Assembly: GCF_031458325.1 (NCBI RefSeq) | Contig: NZ_JAVDYG010000001.1 | Location: 3,348,001-3,412,000 of the forward strand | Direction: 5' to 3' | Source of the DNA: Nocardioides marmoribigeumensis | GTDB taxonomy: Bacteria; Actinomycetota; Actinomycetes; Propionibacteriales; Nocardioidaceae | DNA: 64,000 nt | Shown here: positions 5,167 through 64,000 of the stretch, piece by piece | Numbering within the stretch: position 1 is the first letter of the stretch | Layout of the letters: every line of letters starts with the position of its first letter | The notes under the pieces: generated by a model | Told to the model about the DNA's origin: nothing | Databases searched by the model: none | The model's input: only the letters and a program-made list of their open reading frames with translations | Made by a program: the position numbers and the translations under genes

Positions 5167-6132
5167 ATGATCGGGCCCGTGAGCGAGCGCGTCGTGGTCG
5201 TCGGTGCCGGGGTGATCGGCCTGACCTGCGCGGTGCGCCTGCTCGAGCGGGGCCACGACGTCGCGGTGGTCGCGCGCGACCTGCCGCAGGAGACGACCTC
5301 CGCCGTCGCGGCCGCCCTGTGGTACCCGCACCGCGCCTACCCCTTCGAGCGCGTGACCGCCTGGGGCGCCACCACCTACGCCGCCCTCACCGACCTGGCC
5401 GACCGGCCCGGGACCGGCGTGACCCTGCGCCGGGGGACCGAGGTGCTGCGCCGCACCGGCCCCCGCCCGTGGTGGGCCGACGCGGTCCCCGAGCTGGCAC
5501 GGGCGACCGCCCTGCCCGCGGGTTACGCGGACGGCTGGACCTTCGTGGCGCCGGTGGTGGAGATGCCGGTCCACCTCGACTGGCTGCGGTCCCGCGTGGA
5601 CGAGCTGGGCGGCACCCTCACCCGTATGGCCCTCTCGGCCCTCCCGAGCGCAGGCACGGTCGTCGACGCCAGCGGGCTCGGCGGCCGGCTGCTCGGCGAC
5701 GACGGCTCGGTGCAGCCCGTGCGCGGCCAGGTGGCCTACGTCGAGCAGGTGGGTCTCGACGAGTGGTGGCTGGACGCCGGTGCTGACGGGCCTGGGCCGA
5801 CGTACGTCGTGCCGCGCGAGCACGACATCGTGGTCGGCGGCACCCAGGACGAGGGCGTCTGGGACCGCTCGTTCGACCCCGCGGCGGGGAAGGAGATGCT
5901 CGCCCGGGCCCGCGAGCTCGTCCCGGCGATCCGCCGCGCGCAGGTGCTCGGCACCCGAGTAGGTCTGCGACCCGCGCGCCCGCAGGTGCGGCTGGAGGCG
6001 GAGGAGCGCGACGGCCGGCGAGTGGTCCACTGCTACGGCCACGGCGGCGCCGGGGTGACGTTGTCGTGGGGCTGCGCCGACGAGGTCGCCGACCTGGTCA
6101 GTGGCTCGGGGCCAACCCCTCCAGCCGGGTGA
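5167..6132 (+). CDS. D-amino-acid oxidase-like FAD oxidoreductase
   Basis: A 321-residue flavoprotein of the DAO family that would oxidise D-amino acids to 2-oxo acids with release of ammonia and hydrogen peroxide. The N-terminus has the dinucleotide-binding motif VVVVGAGVIGLTCA, then AALWYPHRAYP, a DAO signature region. The C-terminus has CYGHGGAGVTLSWG, the flavin-contacting segment of D-amino-acid and D-aspartate oxidases, with the preceding arginine-bearing GLRPARPQVRL segment. Length is normal for the family (about 320-350). GTG at 5179 is an alternative start four codons in. The last 35 bases overlap the end of the convergent DUF2254 gene, so the two transcripts are complementary there. 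D-aspartate versus neutral D-amino-acid specificity cannot be read. Confidence 0.82.
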   Translation: MIGPVSERVVVVGAGVIGLTCAVRLLERGHDVAVVARDLPQETTSAVAAALWYPHRAYPFERVTAWGATTYAALTDLADRPGTGVTLRRGTEVLRRTGPRPWWADAVPELARATALPAGYADGWTFVAPVVEMPVHLDWLRSRVDELGGTLTRMALSALPSAGTVVDASGLGGRLLGDDGSVQPVRGQVAYVEQVGLDEWWLDAGADGPGPTYVVPREHDIVVGGTQDEGVWDRSFDPAAGKEMLARARELVPAIRRAQVLGTRVGLRPARPQVRLEAEERDGRRVVHCYGHGGAGVTLSWGCADEVADLVSGSGPTPPAG

Positions 6133-10733: not shown

Positions 10734-11279
10734 TCAGGCCTTGTGGCGCCCGGGAGCGGCGTCGTCACTGCTGGGCCGCGGGCCGGTGGAGGCGTCGGAC
10801 TCGGCCTCCTGCGCCGCGGCCTCGCCCTCCTCGTCGGTGTCGGGGGACGCGTCGTCCTGGGCGTCGTCCTGGGCGTCGTCCTTGACGTCGCTCGCGGAGC
10901 CCGCCTGGGCCTCGGGGTCGGGCTCCTTCTGGCCGATCCCGTCCTGGGCGTCGTTCTCCGAGATGTCGCTGTCCTCGAAGCGGGCCTCCTCCGGGATGAA
11001 GGTGCGCTGGGTGTTGTCGACCTCGGCGTTGTCGGGTCGGTTGTCGGGGTCGAGGCGCTCCTGGCGCTCCTCCTCGATCGTCTCCAGCAGGTCCTTGTCG
11101 ACGTCGTCGGGGGAGCTGGCCTCCATGATGGCCCGGGTCTCCTCGCGGGAGTTGTTGGTCGACTCGTAGGGGGTGTCGTCGAGACCGACGGCGTCCGCGG
11201 GCTCGGCCGACTCGGTCGACTCAGCCGACTCGGTCGCGTCCTCCCTCGAGTCGTCCTTCGCCTTGATGTCGTCGCTCAA
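10734..11279 (-). CDS. acidic, disordered hypothetical protein
   Basis: No recognised family. The frame encodes about 181 residues rich in Asp, Glu, Ser and Ala with almost no hydrophobic runs, so it is probably intrinsically disordered. A short DNA tandem gives the repeat DDAQDDAQDD near the C-terminus, and AESTESAE occurs near the N-terminus. The more ordered middle part includes ETRAIMEASSPDDVDKDLLE and TQRTFIPEEARFEDSD. TTG at 11279 is proposed as the start because GAGGGAG lies about seven bases upstream on the coding strand; the frame stays open to GTG/ATG codons 84 bases further out. Convergent with the dehydrogenase gene; the next gene on the same strand is the AI-2E-type transporter upstream. 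Confidence 0.6.
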   Translation of the reverse strand: MSDDIKAKDDSREDATESAESTESAEPADAVGLDDTPYESTNNSREETRAIMEASSPDDVDKDLLETIEEERQERLDPDNRPDNAEVDNTQRTFIPEEARFEDSDISENDAQDGIGQKEPDPEAQAGSASDVKDDAQDDAQDDASPDTDEEGEAAAQEAESDASTGPRPSSDDAAPGRHKA

Positions 11280-54578: not shown

Positions 54579-54604
54579 GAGGTGCCCGACTCTGCCGATG
54601 GTCG
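54579..54604 (+). repeat. left copy of 26-bp island inverted repeat
   Basis: The 26 bases starting GAGGTGCCCGACTCTGCCG match the reverse complement of 62467-62492 at 25 of 26 positions (G to T at the tenth base). Both copies point inward, as terminal inverted repeats of a 7.9-kb element would. Confidence 0.6.
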
Positions 54605-54618
54605 CTCGCGAAGAAAGG

Positions 54619-54711
54619 TTCGGCGGATCGGGTCCGAGTTCGGCGGATGCCGACATCCGACCACGGACAACCGGTGTCCGGATCCGCCGAACAGTGCACG
54701 GATCCGCCACA
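54619..54711. repeat. four GGCGGAT boxes in two inverted 20-bp-spaced pairs
   Basis: TTCGGCGGAT occurs at 54619-54628 and again exactly 20 bases later at 54639-54648. Its reverse complement ATCCGCCGAA is at 54682-54691 and, with the last three bases changed, 20 bases later at 54702-54711. The pairs face each other across a 33-base centre. Two-helical-turn spacing suggests cooperative protein binding. Confidence 0.55.
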
Positions 54712-54946
54712 CATCGGCGGGCCGTGCCCATCATCCGTGAGAACGGGAAACGACTGATCCCCGATCCGCTGGGCGACTGGGTACGGATCGGACCCCGCAG
54801 CGAGGCCCGAGTCGCACCCAACCTCCTGCCCGACCATGCCGCGATCCGAGCGGTCAGGAGTGCGGCCGATCGGGGTCGATGGGTGCTGATCCGGCCGTCT
54901 TGTACCTGCTCGACGAGAACGGGATCTCGTACGTTATCCATCTCCC

Positions 54947-55471
54947 ATGACCCTGTACGCGGACCTGACTGAGCAGCAGGCGGCGGCTGCTCTCGAGGAA
55001 TTCCTGGAGGAGCGGCCCGCCGCCCTGCGGCATCTCGTGCTCTCCGTGGGCGATGCGGTCGAGTTGGACCACTCGGTCAGGAGCCTCGAGCCGCTGTGGG
55101 TGTGGGTGAAGGAGAGGCTCCGGCTCGGGCCGTCCGGGCAGCAGCCCTCCTGGTCGAGGTTGGGGGTGGGAAGTCACGAGCGACTCGATGCGGGCTCTCT
55201 CCAGCTTCTCGACGGACTGATCTCTTACGTGGTTGACATCGTCACGATCGCCGTCCCGGAGGCGACGTGGGAGGTGGCGACGGATCCGCACCCCAAGTTT
55301 CTGCACAAGAACCAGCCAATGCTGAGGGCCGGGGCCTGGGAGCAGGTGCCGGCTTGGACGATCGGCAACCTGGGGCGCCAAGTGTTCAGCGACTGGCCGC
55401 CGGCCGATGACCGACTCGCGTCGATCGTCGACTTCTGGCTCTTCTGCCTCGCGGAGGTCGCCAACACCTGA
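54947..55471 (+). CDS. hypothetical protein
   Basis: A 174-residue soluble protein with no family I recognise. Predicted mostly helical, with LTEQQAAAALEEFLEERPAA at the start and an aromatic-rich end (SDWPPADDRLASIVDFWLFC). Codon choice is less GC-extreme than in glgP, which fits an acquired gene. First gene inside the island after the border repeats. Start ATG 54947 has no clear ribosome site; an A+T-rich TACGTTATCC precedes it. Confidence 0.5.
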   Translation: MTLYADLTEQQAAAALEEFLEERPAALRHLVLSVGDAVELDHSVRSLEPLWVWVKERLRLGPSGQQPSWSRLGVGSHERLDAGSLQLLDGLISYVVDIVTIAVPEATWEVATDPHPKFLHKNQPMLRAGAWEQVPAWTIGNLGRQVFSDWPPADDRLASIVDFWLFCLAEVANT

Positions 55472-55754
55472 TCAGGGAGTCAGGGGTCGCGGCGTTCAGT
55501 CGATGGTGGCGCCTGCCGTCATGAGACCGCACTCTCGAGAACTCGGGTCTGGCGTCGGTGCCCGGACCGGCTGAGCGCAAGCGCGGGTTGTGCGGGAGTA
55601 GTGGCCAGCGGTGACCGGGACATCGCGTATTGACGAACTCGCAAAGTTCTCGTGCTGCACCGGAGTACTGGAACAGGGCCTGGTCGACGTCCAAGGCCTT
55701 GAGTTCGCCGTTGCGAATGCGGTCGGCCGCGTTGGAAGCCAGCCGACCGCTCAT
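55386..55754 (-). pseudogene. possible truncated gene remnant
   Basis: The first 43 codons from ATG 55754 down to 55626 read like a real protein (ADRIRNGELKALDVDQALFQ, then YSGAARELCEF), but the remaining 80 codons are low-complexity and overlap the end of the plus-strand hypothetical gene. I take this as the N-terminus of a gene that lost its 3' part by rearrangement. The stretch 55472-55868 holds nothing else that I can support. Confidence 0.35.
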
Positions 55755-55854
55755 GCCGCGTAGCGTGCGCCCGCGGCCACTCGCACATGCCGCTGAGAAC
55801 TCGGTCCTGCCGACGAGCGGGCGGCTCCCATGATCGGCGGCGTCGGTCCTGCAC

Positions 55855-58134: not shown

Positions 58135-58280
58135 CGGCGGTGGGGGCGGAGGTGGGGGTGGAGCTGGCGGGGTCGGGACGGCCCTCTTGCGTGGCCGGAT
58201 GGTCGGATAGTGGGTCTGCTGCAGGGGTCGGTGACATCTGATCTGTGGTGCCGAGAGGTGCCGCTGGAAGGATGTGCACC

Positions 58281-58574
58281 ATGCCCAAGCCCTATCCCCA
58301 GGAGTTCCGCGACGATGTCGTGCGCGTGGCCCGCAACCGGGAGCCAGGTCAGCATCTGAAGCAGATCGCGGCCGACTTCGGGATCAGCGAGTCGTGCCTG
58401 ACGAACTGGATGGCCAAGGCCGATGTCGAGGACGGCACCAAGCCCGGGGTGACCGCGGCCGAGAACGCCGAGCTGCGTGAGGCCAGGAAGCGGATCCGGC
58501 TGCTGGAGCAGGAGAACGAGGTCCTGCGTCGTGCGGCGGCGTATCTCTCGCAGGCGAACCTGCCGGGAAAGTGA
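58281..58574 (+). CDS. IS3-family transposase OrfA
   Basis: A 97-residue protein: helix-turn-helix (HLKQIAADFGISESCLTNWM) that binds the terminal repeats and a C-terminal leucine-zipper-like helix (ARKRIRLLEQENEVLRRAAA). It ends at TGA 58572-58574, directly after the heptamer GGGAAAG (58565-58571), which is in the phase required for -1 ribosomal frameshifting (codons GGA AAG). Confidence 0.9.
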   Translation: MPKPYPQEFRDDVVRVARNREPGQHLKQIAADFGISESCLTNWMAKADVEDGTKPGVTAAENAELREARKRIRLLEQENEVLRRAAAYLSQANLPGK

Positions 58575-59458
58575 TGTACCCGCTCGTCCGCGAGCTGGCC
58601 GAGGACGGGATCCCCGTCACGGTGACGTGCCGGGTGCTGAAGATCGCTCGCCAGCCCTACTACCGCTGGCTGGCGGGCCCGGTCACCGAACGCGACCTGG
58701 TCGAGGCGCACCGGGCCAATGCCCTGTTCGACGCCCATCGCGACGACCCGGAGTTCGGCTACCGGTTCCTGCTCGACGAAGCCGTCGAGGCCGGTCAGGA
58801 CATGGCCAGCAGGACTGCGTGGCGGATCTGCTCGAGCAACGGCTGGTGGAGCGCGTTCGGCAAGCCCAAGCGCGGCAAGAACGGCCGGACGGGGCCGCCG
58901 GTGCACGACGACCTGGTGGAACGCGACTTCACCGCTGAGGTCCCCAATGAGCTGTGGCTGACCGACATCACCGAGCACCGCACCGCCGAGGGCAAGCTCT
59001 ACCTCTGCGCGATCAAGGACGTCTTCTCCAACCGGATCGTGGGCTACTCCATCGACTCGCGGATGAAGTCACGCCTGGCCGTCGCTGCCCTGGACTCAGC
59101 GGTCGCCCGACGCGCCGCCGAGGGCTACTCGGCGGCGGGGTGCATCGTTCACTCGGACCGCGGGTCGCAATTTCGCAGCCGGAAATTCGTCCATGCCCTG
59201 AACCGGTACGGCTTGGTCGGATCGATGGGCAGGGTGGGCGCGGCTGGCGACAACGCCGCCATGGAGTCGTTCTTCTCGCTGTTGCAGAAGAACGTCCTGG
59301 ACCGACAGAGCTGGGCCACTCGCCAGGACCTGCGGATCGCGATCGTGACCTGGGTCGAGAGGACCTATCACCGTCGTCGCCGACAAGACGCGCTCGGTCG
59401 GTTGACCCCCATTGAGTACGAGACCATCATGACCACGCCAGCCACTCAGGCTGCGTGA
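58571..59458 (+). CDS. IS3-family transposase OrfB (DDE integrase)
   Basis: Up to 295 residues, in the -1 frame relative to OrfA and overlapping it by four bases (GTG 58571, ATG 58574). An HTH_21-like N-terminus (VTCRVLKIARQPYYRWLAG) precedes the catalytic core with first Asp in LTDITEHRTAEGKLYLC, second Asp in IVHSDRGSQF and Glu in GDNAAMESFFSLLQ. Probably made mainly as an OrfAB fusion through the slippery heptamer GGGAAAG. No internal stop, so the element may still be active. Confidence 0.9.
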   Translation: MMYPLVRELAEDGIPVTVTCRVLKIARQPYYRWLAGPVTERDLVEAHRANALFDAHRDDPEFGYRFLLDEAVEAGQDMASRTAWRICSSNGWWSAFGKPKRGKNGRTGPPVHDDLVERDFTAEVPNELWLTDITEHRTAEGKLYLCAIKDVFSNRIVGYSIDSRMKSRLAVAALDSAVARRAAEGYSAAGCIVHSDRGSQFRSRKFVHALNRYGLVGSMGRVGAAGDNAAMESFFSLLQKNVLDRQSWATRQDLRIAIVTWVERTYHRRRRQDALGRLTPIEYETIMTTPATQAA

Positions 59459-59733
59459 CCCAACCTGTCACCCGTCCCTGCAGCAGACCCAGAGACGGTC
59501 GCTGGCTTGTAGCGACGCTCCTCCTGCATCCAGCGCACGAACAACTCGATGTGGACACGCTTGGCCTCCACCGGATCGAGCTGATGCTCCGCACACCACA
59601 TCAGGTACGAGCGGAGGTCGGACTCAGCATGTTGACGGGTCAGTCCCTTGTACTGCGCGAGGTATGCCGCTGCAGCGCGCCAGGTCCGGTCCTGACCGGG
59701 AACGATGAGAGAGGAAATGAGGACTGCATTCAT
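59446..59733 (-). pseudogene. tyrosine recombinase (phage integrase) N-terminal fragment cut by the IS
   Basis: From ATG 59733 the minus strand encodes about 80 residues of a SAM-like core-binding domain (TWRAAAAYLAQYKGLTRQHA and ESDLRSYLMWCAEHQLDPVE, then HIELFVRWMQEERRYKPATV). The frame enters the IS terminal repeat at 59491 and stops at 59446, so the catalytic domain with R-H-R-Y residues is missing. No continuation is found on the other side of the IS. The intact gene was likely the mobility gene of the island. Confidence 0.75.
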
Positions 59734-59807
59734 CTGATGAGTCCCGCACCGCCACCCCCTACAGTCAACCGGCCCGAGTGGCACGGGGCTACGCCATGCA
59801 GTCGCGA

Positions 59808-60946
59808 CTCCGCCCCGACAGCGGCATGGTCGGGCTCCGCCCCGACAGCGGCATGGTCGGGCTCCGCCCCGACAGCGGCATGGTCGGGCTCCGCCCCGAC
59901 AGCGGCATGGTCGGGCTCCGCCCCGACAGCGGCATGGTCGGGCTCCGCCCCGACAGCGGCATGGTCGGGCTCCGCCCCGACAGCGGCATGGTCGGGCTCC
60001 GCCCCGACAGCGGCATGGTCGGGCTCCGCCCCGACAGCGGCATGGTCGGGCTCCGCCCCGACAGCGGCATGGTCGGGCTCCGCCCCGACAGCGGCATGGT
60101 CGGGCTCCGCCCCGACAGCGGCATGGTCGGGCTCCGCCCCGACAGCGGCATGGTCGGGCTCCGCCCCGACAGCGGCATGGTCGGGCTCCGCCCCGACAGC
60201 GGCATGGTCGGGCTCCGCCCCGACAGCGGCATGGTCGGGCTCCGCCCCGACAGCGGCATGGTCGGGCTCCGCCCCGACAGCGGCATGGTCGGGCTCCGCC
60301 CCGACAGCGGCATGGTCGGGCTCCGCCCCGACAGCGGCATGGTCGGGCTCCGCCCCGACAGCGGCATGGTCGGGCTCCGCCCCGACAGCGGCATGGTCGG
60401 GCTCCGCCCCGACAGCGGCATGGTCGGGCTCCGCCCCGACAGCGGCATGGTCGGGCTCCGCCCCGACAGCGGCATGGTCGGGCTCCGCCCCGACAGCGGC
60501 ATGGTCGGGCTCCGCCCCGACAGCGGCATGGTCGGGCTCCGCCCCGACAGCGGCATGGTCGGGCCGGGCTCCGCCCCGACAGCGGCATGGTCGGGCTCCG
60601 CCCCGACAGCGGCATGGTCGGGCTCCGCCCCGACAGCGGCATGGTCGGGCTCCGCCCCGACAGCGGCATGGTCGGGCTCCGCCCCGACAGCGGCATGGTC
60701 GGGCTCCGCCCCGACAGCGGCATGGTCGGGCTCCGCCCCGACAGCGGCATGGTCGGGCTCCGCCCCGACAGCGGCATGGTCGGGCTCCGCCCCGACAGCG
60801 GCATGGTCGGGCTCCGCCCCGACAGCGGCATGGTCGGGCTCCGCCCCGACAGCGGCATGGTCGGGCTCCGCCCCGACAGCGGCATGGTCGGGCTCCGCCC
60901 CGACAGCGGCATGGTCGGGCTCCGCCCCGACAGCGGCATGGTCGCG
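59808..60946. repeat. minisatellite: 42 tandem copies of a 27-bp unit
   Basis: The unit begins CTCCGCCCCGACAGCGGC and ends ATGGTCGGG. 28 perfect copies run 59808-60563, then five extra bases CCGGG (60564-60568), then 14 copies run 60569-60946, the last with one changed base. Because 27 is a multiple of three and the unit lacks stops in every phase, all six frames are open, giving spurious long frames (MVGLRPDSG on plus, PLSGRSPTM on minus). Each unit can form a hairpin GTCGGGC-TCC-GCCCCGAC with one bulged C. No ribosome site or real gene start precedes it, and there are no spacers, so it is neither a CRISPR nor a clear gene. It separates the recombinase fragment from the next island gene; the flanks 59734-59807 and 60947-61106 hold nothing I can name. 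Confidence 0.95.
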
Positions 60947-61106
60947 CGGCTGTCAGCTCGAGGCTAGTTGCCCTGCGAGTCTGATCTCTATTCCATGAGT
61001 CGACGAGGCCGCTCTGCGGCTTGGGCACGAGTGGGCTCGTGGCCCGCTGACCCACCTACGCTTGGCGTCCTCGGTCACGCTCAATCGGACTGTCGAATCG
61101 GACAGG

Positions 61107-61112
61107 TAGCGT
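61107..61112 (+). promoter_or_regulatory. -10 element of island membrane gene
   Basis: TAGCGT, identical to the -10 of glgP and nucS, ends eight bases before GTG 61121. A small inverted repeat CTGTC-N6-GACAG (61090-61105) lies just upstream. Confidence 0.35.
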
Positions 61113-61120
61113 GTCGAACC

Positions 61121-62413
61121 GTGCTTAGTGGAATTCTGCCCGGGCTCAGGCAAGTCAGAGCCCCACTCATTTCTGGCGCCATTTACTTCGTTGTGGTGTG
61201 GGTCGTGATCGACGGCAAAGACCGGCTGTCAGACCTTGGACACTCGACGGGTCTGGAAAGGATCGCAGAGCTTGCGCAGACTGTAGGCCCAGGCGTGACG
61301 CTCGCTGCTGCGGGACTCGCGGCTTACCTGCTCGGAACCTTTCTCGTCATCCGTGACTGGCCTCAGTTCCTCACACTGCAGCACTGGAGACTCCTCCCAT
61401 CGACACTGACGGAGGAAGAGATGGCCAACTGGCGCCGCTTGGACCCACTGCGCCGGTTCTTACGGAATTCCTGGAATGCGGTGGCTGCCATCTGGCGCGG
61501 ATATCGATCAATCGAGATGTCAACGATGGAGTTCACCGAGTGGCGCCGTCGTGAGTACCCGTACAACCATGACCGATTCGATCCCGTTTGGAGTTATGAC
61601 CGCGCGGACGGGCTTGGCACCGAGATGTCGGCCAGGCGAACCCACGAGTGGGCTGGTCGCCTCGACAACTGGGTGTACCGCCAAATGGACAACCTCCACA
61701 GGACCTTCACCTACAAGGACCTAAAGTCCATTGATCCTCCCGACGACTTCTGGGGAGAGGTATATAGCTCGTGGAACGACTTTCGCGACTTCCAGTGGAG
61801 GCGTGCTAACAATGAATGGCAATATCGCGGTGGTGACTGGGAGGGTGGCCTGCGGCTTGAGGACAACGAAACCGTCAGCCTTCCATCACACTATTTTCCG
61901 CTGCGAAGCGATCAGATCCCGCCATGGGCGCCGACCCCTGATGGCTGGGAAAAGAATCCAGAGCACGAGTGGTGGGATTTTGACCGCAACCTCCATGAGG
62001 ACGTTCACCACATCGTTCTGCGCGAAGCCTTTCTGGCAAACCTAAGCGAAGAGCGGCAGCGTCTCGTTGCGAAACTCAAGGCGGATGGCGGGGTGCACTT
62101 CGGCGAGTATGATCGAGCCAAGGCTGAAGCCGAGTTGCGCTATTCAGCCGCGCCGCCTCTACTTCTACTAATCGTCGTGTTGGCGGTGCTGTGGTCGCCA
62201 GTAGTTCTGGTGGGTGTCGTGCTCCCGCTACTAATGATCAAACAAGGTTTAAGTATCGAGCTCAGTGGTGTCGTCGATTTATACATGGCGCTCCAGTACG
62301 GCGGAGTCAAGTCGCCGACGATGGCCTTGCTTTACGAATGTCGGGCACGTTCACGCCCTCCCCAAACGGAGAACAGCGACCTTGCGGCGAGCGAAGTCAA
62401 CCAATCGGTTTGA
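61121..62413 (+). CDS. hypothetical membrane protein of accessory island
   Basis: About 430 residues from GTG 61121, selected for its position after TAGCGT and directly before the first helix. Two N-terminal hydrophobic segments (LISGAIYFVVVWVVIDG and GVTLAAAGLAAYLLGTFLVI), a large Trp/Arg/Asp-rich cytoplasmic domain (residues about 90-370), and a C-terminal hydrophobic hairpin (PPLLLLIVVLAVLWSPVVLV). No family recognised. The coding sequence has many A/T-ending codons, unlike all core genes in the window, which is a sign of recent transfer. Last gene inside the right 26-bp repeat. Confidence 0.6.
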   Translation: MLSGILPGLRQVRAPLISGAIYFVVVWVVIDGKDRLSDLGHSTGLERIAELAQTVGPGVTLAAAGLAAYLLGTFLVIRDWPQFLTLQHWRLLPSTLTEEEMANWRRLDPLRRFLRNSWNAVAAIWRGYRSIEMSTMEFTEWRRREYPYNHDRFDPVWSYDRADGLGTEMSARRTHEWAGRLDNWVYRQMDNLHRTFTYKDLKSIDPPDDFWGEVYSSWNDFRDFQWRRANNEWQYRGGDWEGGLRLEDNETVSLPSHYFPLRSDQIPPWAPTPDGWEKNPEHEWWDFDRNLHEDVHHIVLREAFLANLSEERQRLVAKLKADGGVHFGEYDRAKAEAELRYSAAPPLLLLIVVLAVLWSPVVLVGVVLPLLMIKQGLSIELSGVVDLYMALQYGGVKSPTMALLYECRARSRPPQTENSDLAASEVNQSV

Positions 62414-62466
62414 CGACTTCTGCGCCCAACTCCTGTCGTGCTATGAGTCGAGCGTGTCCCGATGCC

Positions 62467-62492
62467 CGACCATCGGCAGAGTAGGGCACCTC
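62467..62492 (-). repeat. right copy of 26-bp island inverted repeat
   Basis: Reverse complement of 54579-54604 with one difference. It lies in the 158-base gap after the membrane gene and reads inward, so the pair delimits 54579-62492 (7914 bp). No flanking direct duplication is seen. Confidence 0.6.
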
Positions 62493-62571: not shown

Positions 62572-64000
62572 TCAGCGGCGGAGGTTGATCTCGACAGACA
62601 GAGGCTGGTCAGGGAAGTAGAGCTCGACCTGCTCGCCGGCCCCGAGCATCTGCCGAGCCTCATCGGGGTCGATGCGTCGTGACCCGCGGTGGTCGACCAG
62701 GAATGCCAGGCCGTGAGGGGTGAGCCAGACGTAGCGGCCGTGGCCGCACTGCCGGGAAGTGAAGCCCGCACGAGTCTTCCAGCGGTGGTGTCGCCGACCG
62801 AGTGGGCCGGAGTTGTGGGTGCCTGTCTGGGGCGGGTGGTCCGGTGGTGCCCCCGGTCTGTAGGGGGTGGGATGGTCGTAGTCCACGCCCCGGCCGGTGG
62901 AAGAGGCGTAGGGCCAGTAGTCACCGCCGGTGATCAGGTGCACCCGCTCCTTGATCGACTCCGGGTGCTCGTAGGCGGTGGTGCGGACCCGGTCGGAGAG
63001 GTCGATGACCGGTTGGACCACCACGTTGTGCCGAGCCAGGAGGACCTGGAGCTCGGAGAGTGTCATGGCGCCGAGGCCCTCGACCCGGGCGACCCCCTCC
63101 TCGCCGAGCAGGACGGCTTCGTGGAGGTGGACGTAGAGCTTTGCCTGAGGGGCGATTCGTGCGGCGATCGCCGGGTCACGCAGCAGGTCCAGCACGTCGG
63201 CCGGGATCGCGAGGGCGCGGGCGATCGCGTCGGGATCGGTGTTGGGGTCGGTGGTCGGGTCCACGCCGCGGAGCAGGAGCTCGAACAGCTGCCCGAGGCG
63301 ACCGAAGTAGCCCATCGCCATCGATCGCCGCTCATCGAGCGTGGCGTCGGGGTGGGAGGTCAGGAGGGCCTCGGCCACCCGCTCGAGGACCGCGTCGATG
63401 CCGGGCCCGTCGGCGGCGTCGATCCGCGCCACGACCATCCGGGTCCCGTCGTCCTCGGTCTGCCCGACCGCGGCGAAGCCGCGCTGCTTGGCCTCCGCGA
63501 CCTCGTCCTCGTGGGTGCCGGTGTCGGCCTCGATGATCTTGGCGTCCGCCACGTCGAGGATGCGCTTGATCGACTCGGTCGCGATCATCCGGGCCACAGC
63601 CTGGTCGACGATCCACATCCGGTCCGCCGGGACCCTGCGAGAACGGGAGGCGACCGTGCGGGCCACCCACACCTCGGCATCGCCGGCCAGGCAGACCGCC
63701 CACGTGAGCGGCATCCGGTGGACCAGGTCGAGCACGTCGGCCATCGCGGACCGAGTGGCGTTGACGTGCTCCTCGCGAGCCAGCGCGATCTCGCCCAGAC
63801 AGAAGTCCTGGACCCCGGGGGTGCCTTCACCGCCGAGCTGACGCAGGACCTTGCCGATCGCGCGCGCGTGCTCGCGGCCACGAGCGTCGAGACCGTCCAG
63901 CGGGTCCGCGCCGTGCATCGCCACCCACTGCTCCAGGACCCGCAGCTCCTGGACCTCCAGGAGCCGCCGCGTCCGGAGCGTGCTCGTCGCTGCGTCGAGC
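62572..64000 (-). CDS. DUF222 / HNH endonuclease-like (13E12 repeat family) protein, 5' end outside window
   Basis: The frame is open to the window edge, giving at least 475 residues; the visible start codons near 63924 are internal. DUF222 patterns: VLEQWVAMHGADP, then REHARAIGKVLRQLGGEGTP, LGEIALAREEHVNATRSAMAD and IDAADGPGIDAVLERVAEAL. The C-terminal part is HNH-like with VDYDHPTPYRP and NSGPLGRRHHRWKT, where Asp-His and the final His-Lys are present, though the usual cysteine pair is missing. This family is multicopy in many actinomycetes and behaves as a selfish or recombination-prone gene. Its role is not established. Confidence 0.75.
   Translation of the reverse strand, partial: LDAATSTLRTRRLLEVQELRVLEQWVAMHGADPLDGLDARGREHARAIGKVLRQLGGEGTPGVQDFCLGEIALAREEHVNATRSAMADVLDLVHRMPLTWAVCLAGDAEVWVARTVASRSRRVPADRMWIVDQAVARMIATESIKRILDVADAKIIEADTGTHEDEVAEAKQRGFAAVGQTEDDGTRMVVARIDAADGPGIDAVLERVAEALLTSHPDATLDERRSMAMGYFGRLGQLFELLLRGVDPTTDPNTDPDAIARALAIPADVLDLLRDPAIAARIAPQAKLYVHLHEAVLLGEEGVARVEGLGAMTLSELQVLLARHNVVVQPVIDLSDRVRTTAYEHPESIKERVHLITGGDYWPYASSTGRGVDYDHPTPYRPGAPPDHPPQTGTHNSGPLGRRHHRWKTRAGFTSRQCGHGRYVWLTPHGLAFLVDHRGSRRIDPDEARQMLGAGEQVELYFPDQPLSVEINLRR

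Follow-up and report, generated by a model that had tools for sequence, protein, structure and literature searches.

In the textbooks, integrons are the means by which bacteria stockpile and shuffle single genes; their attC sites carry R'' and R' boxes ending in GTTRRRY. The system described below resembles them in having a tyrosine recombinase gene, a leader, and small unrelated genes separated by recombination sites. The array begins beside the recombinase gene, at an attI-like leader that is conserved in four of five sister pairs; clusters without a recombinase also occur, and the content varies between sister loci. It differs from integrons in its Xer-like recombinase, which scores far below the IntI cut-off, in the core CGGCA, in units of 27-34 bp, in the cores that flank the recombinase gene on both sides (two pairs), and in the long tandem arrays that empty sites form. 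Actinobacteria do not appear among the integron-bearing lineages tabulated in a 2008 survey, which leaves it open whether the absence is complete (PMC2426708).

Acinetobacter plasmids carry pdif modules, genes between short Xer-type sites that are shuffled by site-specific recombination. One report gives the sites as 28 bp with a 6-bp spacer, names XerC/XerD as the recombinases, and defines C and D modules by the inward-facing half of the site (PMC13141974). The likeness lies in gene modules bounded by short Xer-type sites. In contrast, the present system has a dedicated linked recombinase, is found in actinobacterial genomes, and has its cores on the same strand at both ends, as seen in the cassettes of L029, L068 and L100 and in a 260-nt element (L and G numbers denote loci and genomes, respectively). 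The tyrosine integrases of Arthrobacter and Gordonia phages are named relatives of the recombinase, but they are phage integrases. Bacterial minisatellites or VNTRs share the short tandem unit and the near-perfect copies, whereas the unit here is read as part of a recombination system and is found at cassette junctions as single copies or short runs.

We analysed a 64,000-nt stretch of the Nocardioides marmoribigeumensis genome (the window) that contains a long array of 27-bp units. Judging from sequence comparison, we think it likely that this array is a tandemly expanded empty site of an integron-like cassette system that has an Xer-like tyrosine recombinase of its own. On the tests applied, the system resembles integrons or dif modules but belongs to neither, because the IntI score is below the cut-off, the attC box is not regular, and the cores lie on the same strand. 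Cassette exchange would here be carried out by a tyrosine recombinase that is apparently not an IntI; the literature searched, largely open-access journal papers, yielded no description of such a cassette system.

The array and its surroundings

Tandem Repeats Finder places the array at 59808..60944 (forward strand), with a period of 27, 41.9 copies and 99% match. Its score is 2229, against 50-79 for the 12 further repeats listed in the window. Matching of the unit, CTCCGCCCCGACAGCGGCATGGTCGGG, gave 41 perfect units with starts from 59808 to 60893 and a single spacing of 32 instead of 27. The order is 28 perfect units, five extra bases (CCGGG, 60564..60568, forward strand, located by unit spacing between units 28 and 29), 13 perfect units, and a final unit (60920-60946) with one mismatch. 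These counts agree with the initial annotation, which had given 28 perfect units, a 5-base interruption and 14 units. It had also taken the near-absent divergence as a sign of youth or of upkeep by recombination or selection, and such extreme uniformity does fit a recent expansion. Units abut, and the array contains no CRISPR-type unique spacers. It is the longest among the site arrays found, and within the genus its pattern is confined to this genome among the five searched.

The unit has inverted arms, GCCCCGAC and GTCGGGC, flanking AGCGGCATG; cut at an alternative point, it reads GCCCCGAC-AGCGGCATG-GTCGGGC plus TCC. Inverted arms around a core are the general form of a tyrosine-recombinase site. 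From this layout we read the units at 59808..60944 as putative consecutive empty cassette-recombination sites. A protein-binding array had been one of four options raised for the repeat, and it is the one we favour, in the form of tandem tyrosine-recombinase sites.

A tyrosine recombinase remnant, identified by homology, lies beside the array (59491..59733, reverse strand) and comprises residues 1-81 of the N-terminal part, with a weak SAM-like domain match below the Pfam cut-off. No further pieces of the recombinase were found elsewhere in the window. The cut gene is adjoined by an insertion sequence (58211..59491, forward strand) with 24-bp terminal inverted repeats that match at 21 of 24 positions; its two ORFs match the Pfam families HTH_Tnp_1 (58245-58574) and rve (58571-59458). 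The recombinase had thus been correctly described as broken, with about 81 of its first residues left, and the position of the array beside it, previously termed unusual, turns out to be the key to the locus. Between recombinase start and array lies a leader (59734..59807, no strand assigned) in an attI-like position, as judged by comparison with L029.

On the other side of the array is a putative cassette (60945..62478, forward strand), defined by position only, from the last unit to a CGGCA at 62474. Its 481-aa ORF (60968-62413) matches no Pfam family. A far-end gene follows (62572..63924, reverse strand), with protein relatives in L029 (73% identity), L051 (57%) and L127 (30%). It was not found in the other 41 of the 45 sequences searched, and we therefore do not treat it as a core part of the system. 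A DUF222/13E12-like protein was considered at first, but Pfam gave no match; the gene is possibly a cassette or a homing-type gene.

Searching the genome with the unit and allowing three mismatches returned 46 matches: the 42 of the window array and four at C1:222353-224848 (L029). A 244-bp stretch with the recombinase start and leader is 98% identical between the two loci. About six leader bases differ just before the first core, and final divergence comes two bases past a CGGCA core. The L029 recombinase is also split by an insertion sequence, with about 34 N-terminal residues on one side and homologue residues 246-302 on the other. Small ORFs follow the L029 leader, including two that lie in 91% identical segments, and the junctions between the ORFs contain one to several units of 27-28 bp. 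With a full-length homologue as query, no intact recombinase was found in this genome at E <= 1e-15, the search returning the two remnants and one 33% Xer-like gene. As both copies are broken, the cassette system is a relic in this genome.

Recombinase homologues and apparent gene exchange at CGGCA cores

Among 294 genomes of the family Nocardioidaceae, 56 have a match to the 81-residue piece at E <= 1e-6, and in 22 of these, this one included, the match is at about 1e-13 or better. In a class-wide sample, 33 of 394 genomes match the full-length recombinase at E <= 1e-40. The loci examined were 20 among the better matches of the 81-residue piece and 20 from the class-wide sample. Homologues elsewhere are open frames of about 300 aa with conserved catalytic residues. 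Across an alignment of nine full-length recombinases, eight are 71-85% identical to the first, and the window piece is 63% identical; R155, K181, H245/R248, H271 and Y280, which we take to be the catalytic residues of tyrosine recombinases, are invariant or nearly so. One homologue matches Phage_integrase (PF00589) at 1.5e-22, and among solved structures XerD is the closest in sequence. The Arthrobacter and Gordonia integrases are 46.5-47.6% identical over 94% of the protein among the best 10 of 111 phage records, and one further phage record falls into the 60-80% identity band. Three plasmid records match at E <= 1e-30, with identities of 36-43%. The exact 23-base site pattern occurs in one record of the named collection, from Nocardioides halotolerans.

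Comparison of these loci shows the anatomy of the system: a recombinase gene of about 300 aa, a short leader, and cassettes of mostly single small genes, joined by one or more putative short sites with the core CGGCA. For example, the intact recombinase of L057 (G213) is followed by 6 kb of ORFs separated by the site GCGGCATGGTCGGGC...GCTCCGACAGCGGCATG or its halves. The sites of L066, L058, L061, L068, L070 and L052 differ from locus to locus but retain this core, and L100, a locus of another family, combines cassettes with a 34-bp unit in 18.6 tandem copies. Counts of same-strand CGGCA pairs are higher than in every one of 40 shuffles for 13 of 42 loci (the window, L029, L052, L055, L057, L059, L066, L068, L070, L098, L100, L102 and L103), L102 and a 281-bp stretch of L103 representing distant homologues. 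Also from another family, L149 (G440:C8:546500-566400) has eight sites of the 34-bp type, 0.5-5 kb apart over 12 kb, in a genome with just 33-34% Xer-like relatives of the recombinase.

Gene content changes at these cores. In sister loci the recombinase and leader match, and four of the five pairs examined (window/L029, L063/L064, L065/L066 and L053/L055) stop matching within two bases of a CGGCA; L053/L054 part away from a core. The alike blocks of L063/L064 and L065/L066 have cores at both ends, outside the recombinase start and stop, so that the recombinase gene itself looks like a cassette. L058 and L061 have 3.9 kb in common, then partly different cassettes, then a common distal flank, and one common cassette ends within seven bases of a core. 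Considering HSP ends between distinct loci, 12 of 36 had a core within 10 bp on both sides, compared with 1.3% at random, and 24 were not at cores. The 36 ends were obtained from 71 HSPs by removing self matches, copies of the 260-nt element, the L151/L155 tandem match, the duplicate L061/L101 and two distant-family pairs, none of whose four ends was at a core. The binomial probability is 2e-14 for 35 ends that are not fully independent. When cassette ends were compared with swapped partners, there was no significant difference, 67 of 500 swaps being as good at the best central width; the set of 66 segments was gathered automatically and includes false segments. The arm geometry is therefore tentative.

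The 260-nt element (54593..54841 in the window, forward strand, no assigned product) was found by repeat comparison and has TGCCG cores at both ends. Its five copies in the genome are 97-100% identical and have cores at all ten ends, with five different left and four different right neighbours. There are just four on the right because the same cassette follows the copies in the window and in L127. This is cassette B (54837..55758, forward strand), whose 174-aa ORF (54947-55471) has no Pfam family; element and cassette are repeated at L127 with 97% identity over 1102 bp, up to 55693. At L128:7918-8173, a copy with cores at its ends sits directly behind a purE-like gene (the name is presumed), the recombinase remnants being elsewhere; it is perhaps an insertion at a secondary site. 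Positions ~44-150 of the element are partly palindromic and have diverged relatives (74-83%) at eight further places in G000:C1, for example at 4331596, 1429092 and 2152292. A putative cassette near the element (L127:9315-9925) is 89% identical to 5338-5945, about 4 kb away. We presume that this stretch encodes a response regulator, and its duplication may show how a cassette captures a gene.

Sequence comparison also revealed a 2,014-bp block with an ArsR-type regulator that is 98.8% identical in G092 and G260 (oriented L054:303-2316 and L067:6094-8104). It lies on opposite sides of the recombinase in the two genomes and ends 9 bp from cores, and we read it as a probable recent transfer between two genomes of the family. 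L067 additionally has 5.4 copies of another 28-bp repeat (GCGGGATGGGCTCGCGGAGCGTGCCGGT) at 11118-11269, about 8 kb from the intact recombinase. Pfam assigned a family to 12 of 20 proteins from the loci and none to eight; the 20, one of them a recombinase, are a selection from script-called ORFs plus three others, and some calls may be wrong. The families are Barstar, DUF4279, glyoxalase, Imm8, sigma-70, PhyH, VanZ, HIT, DUF6308, DUF6461, ArsR and recombinase. The cassette genes thus belong to unrelated families.

Mechanistically, the recombinase would bind the arms flanking the core and exchange strands in or beside the core, and cassettes between direct sites would be excised and inserted. 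The recombinase gene, which lies between cores in two of the sister pairs, may itself be mobile. A site without a cassette would be a 27-34-bp unit, such as is left at a cassette-free junction and seen between cassettes in L029.

Alternative readings of the repeat

The array could instead be a dispersed palindromic repeat, REP/BIME- or terminator-like, that was amplified by slippage and whose closeness to a recombinase is secondary. The unit is indeed an inverted repeat of high G+C content, slippage alone accounts for perfect copies, and some arrays have no recombinase nearby or no intact one in the genome. A search of 288 family genomes with the site pattern is in keeping with this reading as well: 62 genomes matched, mostly once and at the level of the reversed control, with G000 (this genome), G213, G279 and G272 as the conspicuous ones. 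What speaks against it is that changes in gene content break at the core, and that site motifs cluster at close recombinases. Close homologues (N-terminal matches of the 81-residue piece, or full-length matches of 58-76%) are surrounded by at least one of three short junction motifs in 18 of 26 loci, with 59 occurrences in all; the other eight loci lack them. The motifs had zero occurrences in the 14 loci around distant homologues (40-51%), as had their reversed controls. Nine array loci chosen for their sites gave 31 occurrences in eight. Leaving out the loci that defined the motifs (L058, L061, L066, L068 and L100), 13 of 21 close loci have matches, the junctions of some of these 21 having been seen before the motifs were chosen. 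Across ten whole genomes, CGCTCATCGGCANGA has 27 matches, 16 of them within 10 kb of a recombinase (nine of 15 without the motif-source genomes G200, G095 and G153), and its reversed control has none.

The folding of the unit is a further point against a REP-like element. Single strands of the unit with its flanking cores are no more stably folded than shuffled sequences (z -0.22 and +0.28 for the two strands). The initial annotation had noted a hairpin in each unit; the inverted repeat is present, but it is not unusually stable, and the hairpin is not supported as the functional feature of the 27-bp unit. An ordinary repeat scattered without any link to recombinases had been named there as an outcome that would refute the observation. 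The unit is scattered, but both loci in this genome carry the same recombinase remnant; the link holds here, whereas some arrays in other genomes have no intact close relative. On balance, we think it unlikely that the array is a dispersed repeat of this kind.

A true integron, in which attC-like sites recombine as folded single strands and the recombinase is an unusual IntI, would also have a recombinase, a leader, a diverging cassette array and small unrelated genes. One full site of L068 does form a more stable single-strand fold than its shuffles (z -2.9 and -3.0), but the 27-bp unit does not. Two recombinases scanned with the integron-integrase model TIGR02249 scored 46.8 and 49.5 bits against a cut-off of 265, the match covering just ~65 residues near the C-terminus. 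Xer models score higher, yet also below their cut-offs. IntI membership was rejected on the TIGR02249 score. CGGCA forms the core, and GTTRRRY boxes are not regularly present in the sites: this motif or its complement starts five times in the 3,739 bp that surround site motifs (nine loci), and there are 102 starts in the remaining 129,400 bp. In addition, attC sites are longer than the 27-34 bp of these units, and the recombinase gene is core-bounded in two pairs. These points make a true integron distinctly improbable.

Long perfect repeats are error-prone to assemble, and two related arrays contain N gaps (L052 and L151), so the true array might be short. The genome, however, is a single contig of 4,440,796 bp, comparable arrays occur in one-contig G279 (23.9 x 27 bp) and in G320 (18.6 x 34 bp), and the 5-bp interruption and variant last unit are landmarks typical of real arrays; we give an assembly artefact very little weight. 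The chance of a coding repeat or an RNA array is negligible: all six frames are open, as the initial annotation had stated, but this follows from a stop-free unit of 78% G+C whose length is a multiple of three and, together with the frame shift at the 5-base interruption, is no evidence of coding; related arrays have periods of 27, 28, 29 and 34, not all multiples of three, and Rfam gave no family at gathering score in the window, L029, L057 and L100, which, with the ordinary stability of the hairpin, speaks against the RNA hairpin array suggested earlier.

Proposed empty-site expansion and a possible link to recombinase loss

Under our preferred reading of the array as expanded empty recombination sites, growth to 42 copies would most likely have occurred by replication slippage or unequal exchange, which we favour because a 27-bp circle is too small as a duplex intermediate. 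As the recombinase is dead here, a need for it in the expansion cannot be shown. Tandem site arrays are found in other genomes with the same range of periods: 23.9 x 27 bp (L153, G279), 18.6 x 34 bp (L100, G320), 6.7 x 29 bp (L155, G272), 3.8 plus a gap plus 4.0 x 29 bp (L151, G213) and, with an N gap, 3.6 x 34 bp (L052). Shorter runs occur in further loci.

A working recombinase would keep runs of empty direct sites short by excision, and after its death the sites would be free to expand. The long arrays are in line with such a signature of recombinase loss, since the 42 copies here and the 24, 19 and 7 copies in G279, G320 and G272 go with recombinases that are broken or absent. In G320, the recombinase frame is lost after the catalytic tyrosine. 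G279 has a 51% match over 124 residues, with the middle of the frame not recombinase-like, plus a 35% Xer-like gene, and G272 has just a 34% Xer-like gene. G213 argues against the signature, because it combines an intact recombinase with a gapped array of about eight or more units. G279 and G272 were chosen for their arrays and are thus a biased sample for this question, and the association of broken recombinases with long arrays is suggestive only. Arrays in genomes that lack an intact close recombinase at E <= 1e-15 occur in G279, G272, G066 and G440. Either their arrays are relics, or another recombinase serves them. The host XerC/XerD may use the sites, above all in genomes without an intact recombinase.

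The wider reading is that of an actinobacterial integron analogue with an origin apart from IntI, in which the Xer-type recombinase is itself a cassette and long perfect arrays signal loss of the recombinase. For this combined claim, we regard the case as evenly poised. If true, a separate recombinase with shorter sites would mean that the integron lifestyle has more than one evolutionary origin, and the compact sites would allow direct tests of the rules of cassette capture. An odd minisatellite would become a readable record of recombinase activity and loss, and the system would help to explain gene turnover in the family Nocardioidaceae and its relatives.
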